Source: Gemmatimonadota bacterium (GTDB lineage: Bacteria; Gemmatimonadota; Gemmatimonadetes; Longimicrobiales; Gaopeijiaceae). From it: 52,947 nt of DNA. Numbering within the stretch: the first letter of the stretch is position 1; the number at the start of each line of letters is the position of its first letter. Positions 39,126 to 51,526 of this stretch are shown piece after piece. A program made the translations under genes and the position numbers. The stretch lies in assembly GCA_030827315.1 (NCBI GenBank), contig JAURER010000020.1, positions 1-52,947 of the forward strand. The letters run 5' to 3'. The notes beneath the pieces are model-generated. The model was not told the origin of the DNA, did not search any database, and worked only from the letters and a program-made list of their open reading frames with translations.

Positions 39126-41228
39126 TCAGAGCGCCCGTCGCGTGACCGCGTGCACGCGTGCCATGAAGCGGGCCGCGTCGATCGACTTCTCCACGTAGTC
39201 GTCGGCCCCGGCCTCCAGGAGCTCCGCCTCCAGGGCATCGCTGCCCGTGGCGGTCCGGATGAGTACCGGAAGTGCCGACGTGTCCACGGATCCCCGAATC
39301 TGATCCAGCACCTCCCGCCCTCCGAGGCCTGGCATGGCGAGGTCGAGGATGATGAGCTTGAAGTCCTGGTCGACCTTGAGCATGTCGAGTGCCTTGTGCC
39401 CGTCCTCCGCCTCCTCGACCTCGAACCCGTCTCGCTCCAGGACAAATCGGATCAGGAGGCGGGCCTCCTCGTCGTCGTCCACAAGGAGAATTCTCGGCGG
39501 CCCGACCGTCACCTCGCCCGTGCTGTCGTCGAGTCCCTGCCCGAGCACCCGCTCGACCTCGGCCAGAGTGGTCCTGGCCTTCCCGACCCACTCGAGCCCC
39601 ACTTCGTGCAGCGTGCGCATGCCACTCTGCTTCGCGACGCGCTCGAGCGTCGCGCGGCCCTTCCTCTGCTCGATCGCCTGCTGGAAGCGCGGTCCCACGA
39701 CGAGCACCTCATTGACCGGCAGGCGGCCCCGGTAGCCCGTGAAGCCGCACTCGTTGCACCCGACGGCCCTCACCACGGGTTCCATCCCGTGCCGCTCGGT
39801 GAGCCGCCGCTCCTCGGGCGTGAGGTGCCCGCGCACGGGCTCCGCGCACGCCGCGCACACCCGGCGCAGCAGCCGCTGCGCGATGGCCCCCCGCATCGTC
39901 TGCGAGATCGTACCGTACTGAAGTCCCATGTCCGCGAGGCGGGCGATCGTGGAGACCGCGTCGTTGGCGTGGACCGTGGTGAGCACCAGGTGACCGGTCA
40001 ACGCAGCCTGCGCTGCGGTGACCGCGGTCTCGTTGTCGCGGATCTCCCCCACGAGGATGATGTCGGGGTCCTGCCGCAGCATCGCCCGCAGCGCGCTGGC
40101 GAAGGTCATGCCCTGCTTGGTCTGGACCTGCGTCTGCGTGACACCGCCCAGTTCGTACTCGATGGGGTCCTCGACGGTCATGATGTTGACCCGTCCGTCC
40201 GCAAGCTCCCGCAGCGCCCCGTAAAGCGTCGTCGTTTTTCCCGAACCGGTCGGCCCTGTCACCACGACAATGCCGTCGCGGTGGGTCAGCAGGTCGCGAA
40301 GGCGGTCGAGCTCGGCCTTCGGGATGTCGAGATCGTCGAGGGAAAGCGAACTGCTCGAGTCGAGAATGCGAATCACGCACTTCTCGGCCCCGCCGGCCGG
40401 AATGGTAGAGACGCGCAGGTCGTAGCCCCGTGCCTTGACCTGAACGCGTGCCTTCCCGTCCTGGGGGCGGAGCCGGTCGGCGATGTCGAGACGTGAGAGC
40501 ACCTTGACCCGAGACACGATGCGGTTGAGCGCCGCCATCGGGAGGTCCATGTGCTTCCGGAGGACCCCGTCGACGCGATACCGTACGGCCCCAAGCCGGC
40601 GCCCCGGCTCGATGTGGATGTCCGACGCACCGACCGTGATGGCGTCACGGACGATGAGGTTGGTGAGCTTCACCACCGGCGTGGCCGAGACGTCGTCCTC
40701 GGAAATGGACTCCGGGCCCATCTCCTCCAAGACCTTGACCGCGTCCTCGCCGATGTCGTCGCCGAGTCCGCCCAGCAGCGTCTCGACGGCGCGCTCGGGT
40801 GAATATCGCCCGTCGAGCGCCTCCTGGATCACGCCCGGGGCGGCCACCTGAAACAGCAGCGCCCGGCCCGCGGTGAAGCCGAGGGCCCGTTCCGCCTCCA
40901 CGTTCGTTGGATCGCACGTCGCCACGATGAAGTACCGGTCGTCCTCGGCCACGGGGTAGACGTGGTGCCTCCGCGCCATCGTCTCGGGAATCACGAGGGC
41001 GGCATTCGGGTCGGCGCGGTGAACGTCCGCCACGTCCAGTCGGAAGTACTCCGCCACCATGCGTGAGAGGGCGTCGTCAGACAGATCGTAGGCGCGCGTG
41101 ACGTCCGTCCAGGCCTCCAAGGCGCTCGCGCCCGCAGGTATCTCCGGGCGCTGACGGTCCGAATGACCCGCGCGTTCGGCGATGCGCACCATCCAGTGCA
41201 CGGCGTGTCCCCGGGCGGCCTCGCTCAT
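39126..41228 (-). CDS. GspE/PilB-type ATPase fused to a C-terminal receiver domain
   Basis: 700 residues. An N-terminal MshEN/T2SSE_N-like domain spans about 40-150. A GspE/PulE/PilB ATPase spans about 180-565, with Walker A GPTGSGKT (325-332), Walker B IILVGEIRD (390-398), the His box TTVHAND (417-423), and the zinc cysteines C458, C461, C491, C494. After a short linker, a response-regulator domain spans 578-700 with the acidic pocket DDD (584-586), phospho-acceptor D629 in ILDLAMPG, T659, and K681. Type II secretion and type IV pilus ATPases normally end after the zinc domain. Its start overlaps the diguanylate cyclase stop by 4 bases. No pilin or secretin genes are nearby. Confidence 0.9.
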   Translation of the reverse strand: MSEAARGHAVHWMVRIAERAGHSDRQRPEIPAGASALEAWTDVTRAYDLSDDALSRMVAEYFRLDVADVHRADPNAALVIPETMARRHHVYPVAEDDRYFIVATCDPTNVEAERALGFTAGRALLFQVAAPGVIQEALDGRYSPERAVETLLGGLGDDIGEDAVKVLEEMGPESISEDDVSATPVVKLTNLIVRDAITVGASDIHIEPGRRLGAVRYRVDGVLRKHMDLPMAALNRIVSRVKVLSRLDIADRLRPQDGKARVQVKARGYDLRVSTIPAGGAEKCVIRILDSSSSLSLDDLDIPKAELDRLRDLLTHRDGIVVVTGPTGSGKTTTLYGALRELADGRVNIMTVEDPIEYELGGVTQTQVQTKQGMTFASALRAMLRQDPDIILVGEIRDNETAVTAAQAALTGHLVLTTVHANDAVSTIARLADMGLQYGTISQTMRGAIAQRLLRRVCAACAEPVRGHLTPEERRLTERHGMEPVVRAVGCNECGFTGYRGRLPVNEVLVVGPRFQQAIEQRKGRATLERVAKQSGMRTLHEVGLEWVGKARTTLAEVERVLGQGLDDSTGEVTVGPPRILLVDDDEEARLLIRFVLERDGFEVEEAEDGHKALDMLKVDQDFKLIILDLAMPGLGGREVLDQIRGSVDTSALPVLIRTATGSDALEAELLEAGADDYVEKSIDAARFMARVHAVTRRAL

Positions 41229-42157
41229 CCTTTCCCCAGCGTGCTCGGTCGCTTGGCGTTCTTCTCGCGGTACATCGCCTCGTCCGCCGCTGCGACCAGA
41301 TCTCTGAGCCGAACCCCCGGATCGTCCTCCAGATGCACCATGCCGATGCTGACGGAGAGCGAATAGGGTTCCGAACGGTTCTGATTGAAGTCGTCGACTC
41401 GCTCCCGCAGACGCGCGACCAGAGTCTCCGATCGCTCATCGGCGGCCTCGAGAGCCAGAACCCCGAACTCGTCTCCGCCCAGGCGGGCGATGATGTCGGA
41501 GCGCCTGAAGGTCGCACGCAGGATATCTGCCACCTTGCGAAGAGCCCGGTCGCCCACGTGGTGCCCCAACGAGTCGTTGATCGTCTTGAGGCGGTCGAGA
41601 TCGAAATACACCATGGTGATCCCGCGCCCCGACCGGCGAGCTAGCTTTAGATGCTGTTCCCCGAGATCCGCGAATCCACGGCGATTGTACAGTCCGGTAA
41701 GGTCGTCGATCAGCGAAAGACTGCGCAGCGCCTCGAAGAGCCGGTGACGCTCGATGGCGTGCCGGACCGAACGCACGATCAGCGACGGTCCCATCTCGCC
41801 CTGCACCAGGTAGTCCTGCGCTCCGGCCTGCACGCTGGAGAACGCCTCCCCCTCGTTCGGCTCGGCGGAGATCACGAGGATGGGGAGGTCGGGGGCGAGC
41901 GCGTACACCCGCTCGAAGGTCACCATTCCCTGGCTGTCCGCGAGGTCGAGGTTGAGGAGGACCGCGTCGAGTCCGCCCCTCGTCAGCCTCGCGAGTGCCT
42001 GGCTGAGCTCGCCCACCCACTCGACCTGCAGGACACCGGCGTGCGATACCGCGAGCCCTGCCTCAACCTTCTCGAGGGCGTACTCGTCCGGGTCGACGAG
42101 CAGGACGTTGATCGGCCGATGCTGCAGAAGAGCGCTCCTTGCAACGGGATCGGGCAC
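41225..42157 (-). CDS. Diguanylate cyclase with degenerate receiver domain
   Basis: 310 residues, REC (about 15-135) then GGDEF (about 145-305). The cyclase half looks active: GGDEF at 227-231, FDLDRLKTINDSLGH as metal and base site, and the inhibitory I-site RRSD at 218-221, exactly five residues before GGDEF. The receiver keeps the acidic pair D22/D24 and S97 but has N69 (VLLNLDLAD) at the phospho-acceptor position and Q119 (DYLVQG) for the invariant Lys. It should therefore not be switched by ordinary phosphorylation. The gene overlaps the ATPase-REC gene, so c-di-GMP made here probably acts on that ATPase. Confidence 0.92.
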   Translation of the reverse strand: MPDPVARSALLQHRPINVLLVDPDEYALEKVEAGLAVSHAGVLQVEWVGELSQALARLTRGGLDAVLLNLDLADSQGMVTFERVYALAPDLPILVISAEPNEGEAFSSVQAGAQDYLVQGEMGPSLIVRSVRHAIERHRLFEALRSLSLIDDLTGLYNRRGFADLGEQHLKLARRSGRGITMVYFDLDRLKTINDSLGHHVGDRALRKVADILRATFRRSDIIARLGGDEFGVLALEAADERSETLVARLRERVDDFNQNRSEPYSLSVSIGMVHLEDDPGVRLRDLVAAADEAMYREKNAKRPSTLGKG

Positions 42158-42770: not shown

Positions 42771-44852
42771 ATGCGCATGGCCCGTTCCCGCCCCGTCTTC
42801 TCCGTCCCCTCCGCGCTTACCCACGCCCTGCCCCTGGCCATGGCGATCGTCCTCGGAGCGGTGCCGCAGCCGGCCGGAGCACAGGCCGCGCCGTGTGCCG
42901 ACGAGGCATACCGGCACTTCGACTTCTGGGAAGGTCGCTGGGTCGTCCGTGCAACAAACGGCATGCTGGCCGGCCACAACACGCTCACGGTGGAGCTGGG
43001 CGAGTGTGTCCTCGCAGAGCACTACGTGACGCCCGCAGGGTTCGAGGGACGCAGCCTCAACGTGTTCGACGCCTCGCGCGGCGTTTGGCACCAGACGTGG
43101 ATGGACAACACCGGGCTGCTGCTCGTGCTGGAGGGCAGCTACGCGAACGGGCGCATGGTCATGCAGGGCGAGACCGTGGGCGCCGACGGCACGGTCACGC
43201 GCAACCGGCTCACCTGGTCACGCCCCTTCGAAAGCACGGACCGCGTGCGTCAGCTCTGGGAGACGTCCACCGACGGCGGCGCCACCTGGAGCACGAGGTT
43301 CGACGGTCTGTACCTCCGGCAGAGCAGTTCGGTGGACTGGGACGTCCTGCTGCGCGGCGGCACGGTGGTCGACGGGAGCGGGCAGCCGGGCTTCTCGGCG
43401 GACGTCGCTATCCGTGGCGACCGCATCGTCAGAGTCTCTCGCGCGCCCCTCGATCCGGCGCGCGCCGCGAGGGTCATCGACGCCGTAGGCAGGGTTGTCG
43501 CCCCCGGCTTCGTGGACATCCACACCCACCTCGACCCCCTCCTGCGCCTTCCCGGTGGGGAAAGCCACGTGCGACAGGGCGTGACGACAGCGCTGGGTGG
43601 TCCGGACGGGGGCTCGCCCTGGCCACTGGCCGAGTACCTGGCCCAGGCCGACTCCGTGGGCGTCGGCCTCAACGTGGGGTACACGGTCGGTCACAACACG
43701 GTGCGCGAGGCCGTCATGGGGCTGGCATCCCGGGTCCCCACGCCGGGCGAACTGGACCAGATGCGGGCCATGATCGCCCGAGGCATGGACGACGGCGCCT
43801 GGGGGATCTCGACCGGCCTGAGGTATCTGCCCGGGGCCTTCTCGGACGTCGACGAGGTCGTGGAGCTGTCGAAGGAGGCGGCCGTCCGAGGCGGCTTCTA
43901 CACGTCGCACCTCCGCGAGGAGGGCCTCGGACTCTTCGAAGGCGTGTCGGAGGCCCTCGAGATCGGTCGGCGGGCGGACATACCCGTGGTGCTGACGCAC
44001 CACAAGGCGGTAGGTGCGCCCATGTGGGGCTCCTCGGCCCGGACGCTCGCCATGGTCGACTCCGCGCGTGTCGCGGGCACGGATGTGATGCTCGACCAGT
44101 ACCCGTATACGGCCAGCTACTCGGGCATCACGATTCTCGTGCCGGCGTGGGCGATGGAAGGCGGCTCGGATGCCCTGCTCGAGCGCATGGACGACCCGGT
44201 CCTCGCCGACAGCGTCCTGTCCGGAATCGAGTACAACATCGTCAACGACCGCGGCGGCAACGACCTTCGCCGGGTGCAGCTGGCCCTCGTCCCGTGGGAC
44301 CGGTCCCTGGAGGGTCTCACGCTCTACGACTGGGCCGTTCGCGACGGTCTGGATCCGACCCCGGCGACGGGGGCGCGCCTGGTCGTCGAAGCGGTCCGGC
44401 GCGGAGGGGCCAGCGGGATCTATCACGCGCTCTCGGAGCAAGACGTCGAGGCGATCATGGCCCACCCTCAAACCATGATCGCCTCCGACGGCCGACTCGT
44501 AGCCCCGGGTGACGGCCACCCCCACCCCCGCTGGTACGGTACCTTCCCGCGCGTCCTGGGTCTCTACGCCCGCGAGCGTGGCGTCCTCGCCCTAGAGCAG
44601 GCGGTACGGAAGATGACCGCGATGCCGGCCGAGCGGATCGGGCTTCGCGAGCGCGGGCAGATCCGCGCCGGCTGGTATGCCGACGTGGTCGTCTTCGACC
44701 CCCTGTCCGTGGCCGACCGTGCGACCTTCGAGGAGCCCCACCAGTACCCGGTCGGGATCGAGTACGTGCTGGTCAACGGGGTCCTCGCGGTAGACGCGGG
44801 GCAGTACCACGACGTGCGATCCGGACGGGTCCTCCGGCGGGGAAGAGACTGA
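42771..44852 (+). CDS. D-aminoacylase-type amidohydrolase with an N-terminal DUF1579-like domain
   Basis: 693 residues. A signal peptide (MAIVLGAVPQPAGA-Q) is followed by a beta-rich region (about 42-185) opening with FDFWEGRWVV, typical of DUF1579-like calycin folds. A complete amidohydrolase begins near 187 with WDVLLRGGTVVDGSG. Metal ligands are visible: FVDIHTHLDP (HxH), SHLREEG, LTHHKAVG, and IASDGRLV. The GGPDGGSPWP segment replaces the Cys-containing GNCG loop of some D-aminoacylases. Likely substrates are N-acyl-D-amino acids in the periplasm. The two domains are usually separate proteins, so this is an unusual fusion. GGAG lies 5 bases before the ATG. Confidence 0.86.
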   Translation: MRMARSRPVFSVPSALTHALPLAMAIVLGAVPQPAGAQAAPCADEAYRHFDFWEGRWVVRATNGMLAGHNTLTVELGECVLAEHYVTPAGFEGRSLNVFDASRGVWHQTWMDNTGLLLVLEGSYANGRMVMQGETVGADGTVTRNRLTWSRPFESTDRVRQLWETSTDGGATWSTRFDGLYLRQSSSVDWDVLLRGGTVVDGSGQPGFSADVAIRGDRIVRVSRAPLDPARAARVIDAVGRVVAPGFVDIHTHLDPLLRLPGGESHVRQGVTTALGGPDGGSPWPLAEYLAQADSVGVGLNVGYTVGHNTVREAVMGLASRVPTPGELDQMRAMIARGMDDGAWGISTGLRYLPGAFSDVDEVVELSKEAAVRGGFYTSHLREEGLGLFEGVSEALEIGRRADIPVVLTHHKAVGAPMWGSSARTLAMVDSARVAGTDVMLDQYPYTASYSGITILVPAWAMEGGSDALLERMDDPVLADSVLSGIEYNIVNDRGGNDLRRVQLALVPWDRSLEGLTLYDWAVRDGLDPTPATGARLVVEAVRRGGASGIYHALSEQDVEAIMAHPQTMIASDGRLVAPGDGHPHPRWYGTFPRVLGLYARERGVLALEQAVRKMTAMPAERIGLRERGQIRAGWYADVVVFDPLSVADRATFEEPHQYPVGIEYVLVNGVLAVDAGQYHDVRSGRVLRRGRD

Positions 44853-44946: not shown

Positions 44947-45894
44947 ATGACGCACGCGCCCGAGATCCTCGCCCGTCTCGAGGAGACGCTGGGTACCGGG
45001 CGCGTCGAGCGCGACGTGCCCCTCGCCCGGATGACGACGTTCCGCATCGGCGGGCCGGCCGACTTCCTCGTGCGCGCCCGCACCGCCGACGAGCTCGCGA
45101 GCGCCGTGACCGCGGCCCGCGACATCGGGATCGACTGGTTCCTGCTCGGGCACGGGGCCAACGTTCTGGTGGCGGACCGTGGTTTTCGCGGCCTCGTCAT
45201 CCGATCGGAGGTAGCCGGGATCGAGGCCCTCGGAGACGGACGCGTGCGCGCGGGCGCGGGCGTCGAGGTCTTCCCGGACCTCATCGAGGCGACGGTCTCG
45301 CGCGGGCTCGGCGGGCTGCACCACTTCGTCGGAATCCCGAGCACCGTCGGCGGCGCCCTCTGGCAGAACCTCCACTTCCTGTCCCCCGCCCCGGAACGAG
45401 AGCGGACCGTCTTCATCGAGGAGTCCCTGGAGTCCGCCGACCTCCTCACGGAAGAAGGGGTGCGCAGGACGGTCGACACCGCCTACTTCGAATTCGGCTA
45501 CGACCAGAGCGTCCTCCACCATCGGCGTGACGTCGTGCTCTCGGCTACGTTTCGCCTCCAGACCGAGGCGGTCGAAGACCTTCGGCGCGTCATGAGAGAG
45601 AATCTGGCGTGGCGGGCCGAGCGGCACCCCGACCTTTGGCTTTACCCGAGCGCCGGCTCGATCTTCCAGAAGATCGAGGGGATCGGAGCCGGCCGGCTGA
45701 TCGACGAGTGCGGGCTCAAGGGCCGCGTTTCCGGTGGTGCGGCCATCTTCCACCGCCACGCGAACATCGTCGTGAACCTCGGCGGCGCGACGGCCTCCGA
45801 CGTACGGGCGCTCATCGACCTCGCACGCGAAACGGTGCTCCGAGAAACCGGCTACGACCTCGTACCCGAGATCACGTTCGTCGGCGACTTCTGA
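44947..45894 (+). CDS. murB: UDP-N-acetylenolpyruvoylglucosamine reductase
   Basis: FAD enzyme that reduces UDP-GlcNAc-enolpyruvate to UDP-MurNAc in peptidoglycan synthesis. The 315 residues start MTHAPEILARL at ATG 44947. TTFRIGGPADFLV (FAD site), LGHGANVLVADRGFRGLVI, and GIPSTVGGALWQN follow. The catalytic loop is YPSAGSIFQKIEG, and the protein ends with VPEITFVGDF. It stands alone here, away from other mur genes, and converges on the esterase gene with a 6-base gap. Confidence 0.95.
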   Translation: MTHAPEILARLEETLGTGRVERDVPLARMTTFRIGGPADFLVRARTADELASAVTAARDIGIDWFLLGHGANVLVADRGFRGLVIRSEVAGIEALGDGRVRAGAGVEVFPDLIEATVSRGLGGLHHFVGIPSTVGGALWQNLHFLSPAPERERTVFIEESLESADLLTEEGVRRTVDTAYFEFGYDQSVLHHRRDVVLSATFRLQTEAVEDLRRVMRENLAWRAERHPDLWLYPSAGSIFQKIEGIGAGRLIDECGLKGRVSGGAAIFHRHANIVVNLGGATASDVRALIDLARETVLRETGYDLVPEITFVGDF

Positions 45895-49521: not shown

Positions 49522-50534
49522 CGGCCGGCGACGCGCCGCAGAGCATTCCCGTGGGCGAAACGGCGCTCACGCGCGACGCGGGGATCGCGGTTCCGCTCAT
49601 CTGCGGCCCCATGTACCCGTGTTCGAACCCCGAGCTCGTCGCGGCGGTCTCCGAAGCGGGCGGGCTCGGAGTCCTCCAGCCGGTCACGCTGACGTACGTC
49701 TTCGGGTACGACTTTAGGGAGGGGATCCGAGCCATCCGGCGTGCAACCACCCGCCCGATCGGAATGAACGCCCTCATCGAGGCCTCGTCCGACACGTACC
49801 GAAAGCGCATGGAGGAATGGATCGACGTGGCGCTCGACGAGGGCGTCCGCTTCTTCATCACGTCGCTGGGCAAGCCGCGCTGGGTCGTCGACCGCGTCGG
49901 GGAAGTCGGCGGCGTGGTGTACCACGACGTGACCGAACGGAAATGGGCTCAGAAGGCCGTCGACTCCGGGGTCCACGGCCTCATCGGCGTAAACCGTCGG
50001 GCCGGTGGCCACGCGGGCCCCCTGAGCGCCGAGGCACTCCTCGAGGAGGTTGGCGACCTGGGGCTCCCCGTGGTGTGCGCAGGAGGCGTCGGGGCCGCCG
50101 ACGAGTTCGCCCACGCGCTCTCGCTCGGATACGCCGGCGTGCAGATGGGCACGCGGTTCATCGCGACCGACGAATGCCGGGCGAGCGCACCGTACAAGCG
50201 AGCCATCGTGACCGCCGAGGAGGATGACATCGTGCTCACCGAGCGCCTCACCGGCGTCCCGGTGGCGGTCATCAACACCCCCTACGTACAGCGCCTCGGT
50301 CTGCGGGCGGGGTCCCTCGCGCGACGGATGCTGCGCGGGCGGCGCACCAAACACCTGGCCCGAAGTGTCTACGCGCTCCGTGCCGCCTGGACGCTCAAGC
50401 GCACGGCCCTCGACGACGCAGGATCGACCGAATACTGGCAGGCCGGTCGCTCCGTGGCACGCATCCACGAGGTCGTGCCGGCGGCCCAGGTCGTGCGAGC
50501 CTGCGCGATGGCCATCGCATCGACCGAACCTTGA
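49518..50534 (+). CDS. Nitronate monooxygenase-family flavoprotein
   Basis: FMN-dependent TIM-barrel protein of the 2-nitropropane dioxygenase group. The 338 residues start at GTG 49518. They show PLICGPMYPCSNPELVAAVSEAGGLGVL, GVNRRAGGHAGPL with the catalytic-type His of GGHAG, and the FMN-phosphate segment VVCAGGVGAADEFAHALSLGYAGVQMGTRF. It is translationally coupled to the hotdog protein. Related enzymes include FabK-type enoyl-ACP reductases, and pairing with a hotdog protein makes a lipid-related role conceivable. Confidence 0.87.
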   Translation: MTAGDAPQSIPVGETALTRDAGIAVPLICGPMYPCSNPELVAAVSEAGGLGVLQPVTLTYVFGYDFREGIRAIRRATTRPIGMNALIEASSDTYRKRMEEWIDVALDEGVRFFITSLGKPRWVVDRVGEVGGVVYHDVTERKWAQKAVDSGVHGLIGVNRRAGGHAGPLSAEALLEEVGDLGLPVVCAGGVGAADEFAHALSLGYAGVQMGTRFIATDECRASAPYKRAIVTAEEDDIVLTERLTGVPVAVINTPYVQRLGLRAGSLARRMLRGRRTKHLARSVYALRAAWTLKRTALDDAGSTEYWQAGRSVARIHEVVPAAQVVRACAMAIASTEP

Positions 50535-50566
50535 ACGAAGACCCACCGCCCCCCCGGAGAAGAGGC

Positions 50567-51526
50567 ATGAAGCCCCAGCCCACCGTCTCGAGCCGCTCTC
50601 GCTCCCCCTCGACCCGACACCGCATCTCAGGCCGCGCCGCGGCCTGCGTCGCGATCGCGGCCCTCGCCTTTGCGCCCGCGCTGTCGGCACAGGCGGCAGG
50701 CCTCAAGGTGTACATCTCCGCGGACATGGAGGGCATCGCAGGCGTGGTCACGGGAAGCCAGCTTGGACCCAGCGGTTTCGAGTTCGGGCGCTTCCGGGGC
50801 TTCATGACGGCCGAGGTGAACGCCGCCATCGAGGCGGCACGCGCCATGGGCGCCACGGAGATCCTCGTGTCCGACTCGCACGGCAACGGGGAGAATCTCC
50901 TTGTCGAGGAGCTGCCGGGCGACATCCAGCTGGTCCGCTCCTGGCCACGTCCCCTCATGATGATGGAAGGAATCGACGCGACGTTCGACGCGGTCCTTCT
51001 CATCGGGTACCACGCGAGCACGGCAAATCCCGAGGGAGTCCGTGCCCACACCTTCTCGAGCGCCAATCTCACGGCGGTCCGCCTGAACGGTGTCGACATG
51101 ATGGAGGCCAGCATGAGCGCCGCCATCGCCGGGGCGTTCGGCGTTCCCGTGGTCATGATCTCCGGGGACGACGCGACGGTGGAGGAGGCGCGCATGCGCA
51201 TCGGCGACATGGAGGGCGCGGTGACCAAGTGGCACTACGGCTTCCATTCCGCACGCACCCTGATGCCCGAGGCGGCGCGCGGCGTGATCGGGGAACGGGT
51301 CCGCGCCGCCCTCGGCCGCCTCGACGACTTCCGGCCCCTGCGCATCGACGGTCCCCTGGAACTCGAGATCTCGTTCAAGAACTACATGCCGGCCGAACTC
51401 ATGGCGTACCTGCCGAACGTCGATCGCGTTGACTCGCACACGATCCGGTTCGTCGGCCGCGACATGACGGAGATCTCCCGGTTCATCGAGTTCACGACGA
51501 GCTACGCGGCCAACGTCACGCCCTGA
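50567..51526 (+). CDS. M55 D-aminopeptidase, exported DppA homologue
   Basis: 319 residues with a twin-arginine-free signal peptide (CVAIAALAFAPALSA-Q). The M55 zinc site is clear: SADMEG (D53, E55), SDSHGN (H105), GYHAS (H149), and the nucleophile-like H161 in RAHTFSS. Spacing between D53, H105, and H149 matches B. subtilis DppA (D8, H60, H104). It removes N-terminal D-amino acids from peptides. A signal peptide is unusual, because studied DppA is cytoplasmic. GGAGAAGAGG precedes ATG 50567. The gene starts 32 bases after the flavoprotein. Confidence 0.89.
   Translation: MKPQPTVSSRSRSPSTRHRISGRAAACVAIAALAFAPALSAQAAGLKVYISADMEGIAGVVTGSQLGPSGFEFGRFRGFMTAEVNAAIEAARAMGATEILVSDSHGNGENLLVEELPGDIQLVRSWPRPLMMMEGIDATFDAVLLIGYHASTANPEGVRAHTFSSANLTAVRLNGVDMMEASMSAAIAGAFGVPVVMISGDDATVEEARMRIGDMEGAVTKWHYGFHSARTLMPEAARGVIGERVRAALGRLDDFRPLRIDGPLELEISFKNYMPAELMAYLPNVDRVDSHTIRFVGRDMTEISRFIEFTTSYAANVTP

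Follow-up and report, generated by a model that had tools for sequence, protein, structure and literature searches.

The open reading frame at positions 42771-44852 (+) of the window (i.e., the whole stretch of 52,947 nucleotides that was analysed) encodes a protein of 693 amino acids, in which a predicted signal peptide and a calycin-type barrel precede a D-aminoacylase-type amidohydrolase. The extra barrel represents a gain by a predicted secreted enzyme, apparently made once, in one family of Gemmatimonadota. The fused gene is in frame, conserved in 15 genomes or contigs and under purifying selection, such that the fusion is not due to chance. Pfam matches and conservation in relatives support the reading frame. 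Since it is this frame that is conserved, overlapping alternatives, e.g., 43218-44525 (-), are regarded as shadow frames of a coding sequence rich in G+C. With a confidence slightly better than even, we regard the protein as a soluble secreted or periplasmic two-domain deacylase with an Asp279 site, in which the once-fused barrel would act as a ligand- or surface-binding module that replaced a lipoprotein signal.

The protein begins with a predicted Sec-type signal peptide without lipobox (around aa 1-37, 42771-42881), which was judged from the sequence by eye, cleavage site and start codon being estimates. It is followed by the barrel (around aa 42-183, 42894-43319; Pfam, alignment, model, fold search, and profile-profile comparison), by the linker QSSSVD (aa 184-189, 43320-43337), and by the complete amidohydrolase (around aa 188/189 to 693, 43335-44849; Pfam, sequence search, and fold search), all on the forward strand. 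Among the eight fused copies in which it was measured, the linker has 6 aa in seven and 5 aa in one.

Enzyme part and metal site

Amidohydro_3 is matched at aa 234-672 with 99.9 bits (Pfam cut-off 29.7); only amidohydrolase families exceed their Pfam cut-off in this protein, and an S12 serine-hydrolase domain is not among them. The best solved sequence relatives are the D-aminoacylase of A. faecalis and its kin (1rjp, E 8.4e-88), whose alignment starts at aa 184. A predicted model of the mature protein (656 aa), built with 24 sequences, has a pLDDT of 88.6 and a pTM of 0.77. In a fold search with residues 151-656 of this model, corresponding to aa 188-693, D-aminoacylases, N-acyl-D-Glu deacylase and PpOngB (9g5m, 3gip, and 1m7j among them) were matched with Z 53-54, rmsd 1.9-2.6 and 449-454 aligned residues. 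By superposition of the predicted model, aa 188-693 contain the TIM barrel as well as the beta-sandwich in both its halves. As the solved D-aminoacylases superpose on this part, the barrel is an addition ahead of a complete enzyme, which agrees with an earlier note on this DNA that had proposed a separate, secreted, calycin-like domain joined to a complete amidohydrolase. The same note had named, as the case that would speak against it, an N-terminus of 185 residues folded into the ordinary amidohydrolase beta-sandwich. Nothing was found in favour of this reading, and we give it practically no weight: complete D-aminoacylases align only from around aa 184-188 on, orthologues without the domain are otherwise complete, and the domain modelled alone forms a closed barrel. 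The extent given for the domain holds only in part, however, since around 40 of the 185 residues are signal peptide and spacer.

Concerning the active site, the alignments place the HxH motif at His251 and His253 (43521-43529), the first barrel His ligand position at His380 (43908-43910), the second at His410 (43998-44006, together with His411 and with Lys412 at the position of the substrate-carboxylate Lys), and the catalytic aspartate position at Asp573 (44487-44489). The remaining substrate-carboxylate positions are taken by Tyr444 (44100-44102) and Arg587 (44529-44531), and Tyr352 (43824-43826) aligns with the Tyr equivalent to Tyr194 of PpOngB. These equivalences to named residues were read off alignments on the assumption of a constant offset of two between the numbering of the A. 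faecalis enzyme and that of PpOngB. In this clade of fused and unfused orthologues, H251, H253, Y352, H380, H410, K412, Y444, D573 and R587 are each present in all 31 rows, such that HxH, the two further His, the catalytic Asp and the carboxylate Lys/Tyr/Arg positions of D-aminoacylases are all found.

The beta-metal site is different. In characterised D-aminoacylases this position is a Cys, whereas the window protein has Asp279 (43605-43607), and the column is Asp throughout the 31 clade rows, of which 30 are distinct. Subtype V amidohydrolases are defined by a Cys/His/His metal site and a catalytic Asp, according to the PpOngB paper (PMC12017989), which calls the metal ligands strictly conserved across the groups it compares and gives Cys97 as the beta-metal ligand of PpOngB; with Asp279, the window protein falls outside this subtype. 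The claim that the metal ligands are intact thus has to be given up. The substrate loop had further been called Cys-less: the Cys is indeed absent, but the aligned position is, going by the PpOngB paper, a beta-metal ligand and not a substrate-loop residue. Asp279 itself may bind the metal.

Among 12 paralogues of the same genome the 279 column holds Asp in eight, Ser in two, Gly and Val in one each, and Cys in none (L110 and L111 align poorly in this loop, and L109 and L112-L115, being pieces of counted genes or lacking the region, were left uncounted), and among 14 outgroup rows Cys in 11 and Asp in three. Since Asp is not confined to the fused group, Asp279 is not linked to the fusion. Rows L052, L057 and L059, which represent KSB1, Acidobacteriota and a remote protein of Gemmatimonadota, also have Asp at this position, such that the variant is not restricted to the clade of the window. 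The genome itself (3.07 Mb) contains 18 D-aminoacylase-like matches at 14 places, a large expansion, in which one paralogue (L100), devoid of both the HxH motif (Met/Gln instead) and the Asp, is possibly an inactive or altered enzyme.

A literature search, beyond whose scope most subscription papers lay, found no published description of the Asp variant of this metal site (one query being very broad) or of the barrel-enzyme fusion, and no text match for the DUF1579 family name.

The N-terminal barrel and its stand-alone relatives

Modelled alone (AlphaFold2, aa 38-190, 18 sequences), the barrel consists of one helix and ten antiparallel strands with a mean pLDDT of 89.3; the predicted model thus has the N-terminal helix and the antiparallel up-and-down barrel of the calycin fold. 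The closest solved folds are those of OlmO (Z 19.4, rmsd 2.1, 138 aligned residues, 14% identity) and OssO (Z 18.3), followed by nitrobindins (around 15) and fatty-acid-binding proteins (around 11). A search of PDB sequences with the isolated N-terminus gave no match at E up to 1. A search with the barrel profile returned short kelch-type matches at a YD..W motif, with E down to 4.2e-6, which were judged spurious; for the best rows no single stretch was significant.

The description of the domain as DUF1579-like can be kept in a weaker form. PF07617 (DUF1579) scores 11.9 bits in the full protein and 17.3 bits in the isolated domain, below the Pfam cut-off of 25.2, and of the seven stand-alone relatives tested only one (L070, 26.6 bits) passes it. 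In an hhalign comparison, the barrel family matches 10 canonical DUF1579 proteins from the phylum over the full length (95.5%, E 1.3e-8, 136 columns), and more weakly (62%) when the seven fused copies alone form the query. Taken together, these scores make the barrel related to DUF1579, though by score it is not a member of the Pfam family. In alignment A3, which comprises 18 rows, both fused and stand-alone, and omits the truncated L077, the signature WHQTWMDN (aa 106-113, 43086-43109) is invariant at six of its eight positions; the invariant residues, the polar Glu, His, Gln, Asp and Asn among them, are common to fused and stand-alone copies.

These polar residues, and the fact that OlmO and OssO exceed the nitrobindins in Z, might suggest that the barrel is itself catalytic, in the manner of a spirocyclase. 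We consider this very unlikely, as OlmO shares only 14% identity, a common fold shows no function, and the spirocyclase activity is itself called putative in the source (PMC6490886).

Stand-alone relatives of the barrel (29-49% identity) are found in Gammaproteobacteria, a Burkholderiales MAG and Roseivirga, and the barrel profile matches 74 of 298 Gemmatimonadota genomes. Inspected by eye, 40 stretches around barrel matches mostly contain a signal peptide and a barrel, and their frames stop at most seven residues past the barrel, except in L130 (one of two frames), L147, where the frame is broken by a stop codon, and L149. In other Gemmatimonadota, two barrels lie within one ORF (L133, L145, and L151), or TPR-type repeats are situated ahead of the barrel (L148, L152, and L153, the repeats of the last two being below the Pfam cut-offs).

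In none of the 40 stretches was a D-aminoacylase relative found beside the stand-alone barrel at E 1e-10; a threshold of E 1e-5 yielded three weak matches of amidohydrolase type (24-35 bits), compared to 288-890 bits in five control stretches. With no strong D-aminoacylase near the stand-alone barrels of these stretches, a functional link between barrel and enzyme is not seen outside the fusion. Conversely, no stand-alone barrel lies beside the unfused orthologues, either by tblastn or in a search of 15 unfused stretches with the barrel profile, for which two fused stretches served as positive control. A stand-alone barrel occurs elsewhere in two genomes of the unfused group (G037 and G004), a result to be read with the proviso that the 12 unfused genomes need not all be among the 298 searched. 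In the genome of the window itself, no second barrel was found.

History of the fusion, signal peptides and gene neighbourhood

In the family to which the window belongs, 56 of 58 genomes possess D-aminoacylase relatives at E 1e-20. Eight of the 58 carry the fused gene (counting G013, in which two contig ends each hold a part of it), and 12 carry a gene of 65-78% identity without the barrel, these orthologues being otherwise complete. With G254, G196 and named contigs added, the fused cases amount to 15 distinct Gemmatimonadota genomes or contigs. The 16 fused rows of the trees stand for these 15, and the 31 clade rows for 30, as L045 and L083 come from one and the same contig (46479 bases); L046/G005 and L047/G050 are likewise counted as pairs of identical contigs, going by their length.

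In the enzyme tree (36 rows, 16 fused and 20 unfused), in which long outgroup branches meet, the starred branches force at least four changes of state, and a single clade of the fused rows is rejected (AU p 0.00037). In the barrel tree (68 rows, without matches below 111 residues, e.g., two pieces in L147), the 16 fused barrels form one side of a branch with support values of 89/72 (not starred), recovered in 92% of 200 bootstrap trees; closest to them, joined at 96/38, is a stand-alone barrel from the same family. Alignment A4 omits L054-L056, L058, L060-L066, L073 and L075-L077. The favoured and simplest account of the sequences is one fusion of a stand-alone secreted barrel followed by three losses (in G037, in G024/G052, and in G047/G014); the support for a single origin is moderate. 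If there was one fusion, the enzyme tree implies at least three losses of the barrel with the enzyme retained, such that the barrel is not needed for the core reaction. In a Gemmatimonadetes MAG, the frame of an unfused orthologue (L049:627-3614, +) also encodes, at the N-terminus, a beta-lactamase domain (PF00144, 78.5 bits), possibly another fusion partner of the same enzyme.

Concerning the signal peptides, all seven unfused family-f1 orthologues outside the fused group exhibit [GA]C after the hydrophobic core, and five of them fit a simple lipobox pattern, the other two nearly so. The pattern is fitted by none of 14 fused and none of five derived unfused proteins (compared without L008/L084, i.e., the split G013, and without L049, with start codons chosen by rule of thumb). 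Since the unfused outside group is lipoprotein-like and the fused group is not, the fusion probably replaced a lipid anchor, although two more distant unfused relatives (L048 and L050) likewise lack a lipobox, which counts against such a swap. In our reading, a barrel gene with its own signal may have been joined ahead of the enzyme and have displaced the lipoprotein signal, those lineages that later lost the barrel retaining the soluble signal. For the barrel as a membrane-docking domain, as had been proposed earlier, the support is indirect, namely that the fusion coincides with the loss of the lipobox-like Cys.

The same coincidence of signal switch and fusion, together with the barrel losses, would also suit a passenger barrel, tolerated in a fusion whose main contribution was a new signal peptide. 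The barrel moreover evolves faster than the enzyme, with a median dN/dS (NG86) of 0.22 (74 usable of 78 pairs, 13 sequences) compared to 0.12 (77 usable of 78 pairs). A passenger nevertheless appears improbable to us: barrel dN/dS stays far below 1, reaching at most 0.40 in the usable pairs, and the signature residues are conserved in the fused copies.

Directly downstream of the fused gene and on the same strand lies murB (44947-45894), followed by an ORF of 233 aa without Pfam match at E 1e-5, by genes for a dTDP-sugar epimerase, for what is presumably a MATE-like efflux protein and for a nitronate monooxygenase, and, around 5.7 kb downstream, by an M55 D-aminopeptidase gene (50531-51523, +). 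In 13 of 25 stretches searched, many of them short, murB is near the gene, in fused and unfused cases alike; M55 is near the orthologues in five of 27 stretches, two of which are repeated records. Between the enzyme gene and murB, some relatives possess DinB-like and M61 peptidase genes. The neighbourhood fits a salvage of D-amino acids or of cell-wall material, short of proof; being similar whether or not the gene is fused, it offers no explanation for the barrel. Elsewhere in the window, a gene for a secretion- or pilus-type ATPase (39126-41228, -; MshEN and T2SSE) encodes a C-terminal response-regulator receiver domain and adjoins a receiver-GGDEF gene (41225-42157), so that a c-di-GMP-linked control is possible.

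Proposed function and comparison with known systems

The preferred reading, a soluble two-domain deacylase with a binding barrel, joins computed elements (domain boundaries, predicted fold, repeated loss, purifying selection, and residue conservation) to others that we infer (substrate class, Asp279 as ligand, anchor swap, and the role of the barrel). The protein would probably hydrolyse N-acyl-D-amino acids as a soluble enzyme outside the cytoplasm. Water would be activated by a divalent metal, with His380, His410 and, instead of the usual Cys, Asp279 as its ligands; Asp573 would act as catalytic acid/base, and Lys412, Tyr444 and Arg587 would hold the alpha-carboxylate of the substrate. The barrel would descend from a stand-alone secreted calycin related to DUF1579, a single fusion of which would have replaced the ancestral lipoprotein signal of the enzyme. 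Its role as an accessory binding module is uncertain; most likely it would by itself bind a ligand or a surface and so localise the enzyme or gather substrate. An added domain can at least tune activity, as the removal of an extra C-terminal domain from another amidohydrolase led to a roughly 4-fold loss, according to a preprint (PMC13081902).

Fusion and Asp site together constitute a modest variation on a known enzyme: one lineage gained a domain that was repeatedly lost again, and an Asp is conserved in place of a metal-binding Cys. Close orthologues that differ in the presence of the barrel, and whose enzyme parts are 71-82% identical to that of the window, provide a natural experiment on the role of a DUF1579-related domain. 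Should Asp279 bind the metal, the classification of D-aminoacylase metal sites and the recognition of such enzymes in genomes would be widened.

Among known systems, the enzyme part is most similar to the D-aminoacylases of A. faecalis (1m7j), B. bronchiseptica (3gip) and K. pneumoniae (9g5m), with which it shares the fold over aa 188-693 (Z 53-54), HxH, the two further His, the catalytic Asp and the carboxylate Lys/Tyr/Arg positions, whereas it differs from them in Asp279 at the position of the beta-metal Cys, in a shorter stretch after this loop, in the signal peptide, and in the extra N-terminal barrel. The GlcNAc1A deacetylase PpOngB (9kb1 and 9kb3) likewise shares the fold (Z 53) and conserved binding-residue positions, but has Cys97 as ligand and no barrel. 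To DUF1579 (PF07617), the barrel is tied by the full-length profile-profile match, yet it remains below the Pfam cut-off and has its own signature WHQTWMDN. The spirocyclases OlmO and OssO (7sfn and 7sfp), the closest solved barrels ahead of the nitrobindins, share only 11-14% identity and derive from polyketide gene clusters of Streptomyces.

A functional parallel is Pab87 (CubicO), a D-peptidase of Pyrococcus abyssi, in which a lipocalin domain is joined to a D-amino-acid-specific hydrolase (PMC2651629). Since this domain is described there as driving octamerisation and lining the active-site chamber, the window barrel might by analogy be an assembly module that drives oligomerisation and encloses the active sites, which would suit the short linker of near-constant length in the eight copies. 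We hold this to be rather unlikely, because the invariant barrel residues are the same in stand-alone copies, which have no enzyme to assemble, so that binding is preferred over assembly; unfused orthologues moreover persist, and in Pab87 the lipocalin domain is C-terminal and its partner an unrelated S12 serine hydrolase. Pab87 therefore shows that a D-amino-acid hydrolase can bear a lipocalin domain, but is a precedent only as a system that works alike. More tentatively than the reading of a binding module, and in our estimate with the chances against it, the protein may belong to a D-aminoacylase-like lineage with a His/His/Asp beta-metal site beyond subtype V, one branch of which swapped its lipid anchor for a ligand-binding or assembling calycin, convergently with Pab87.
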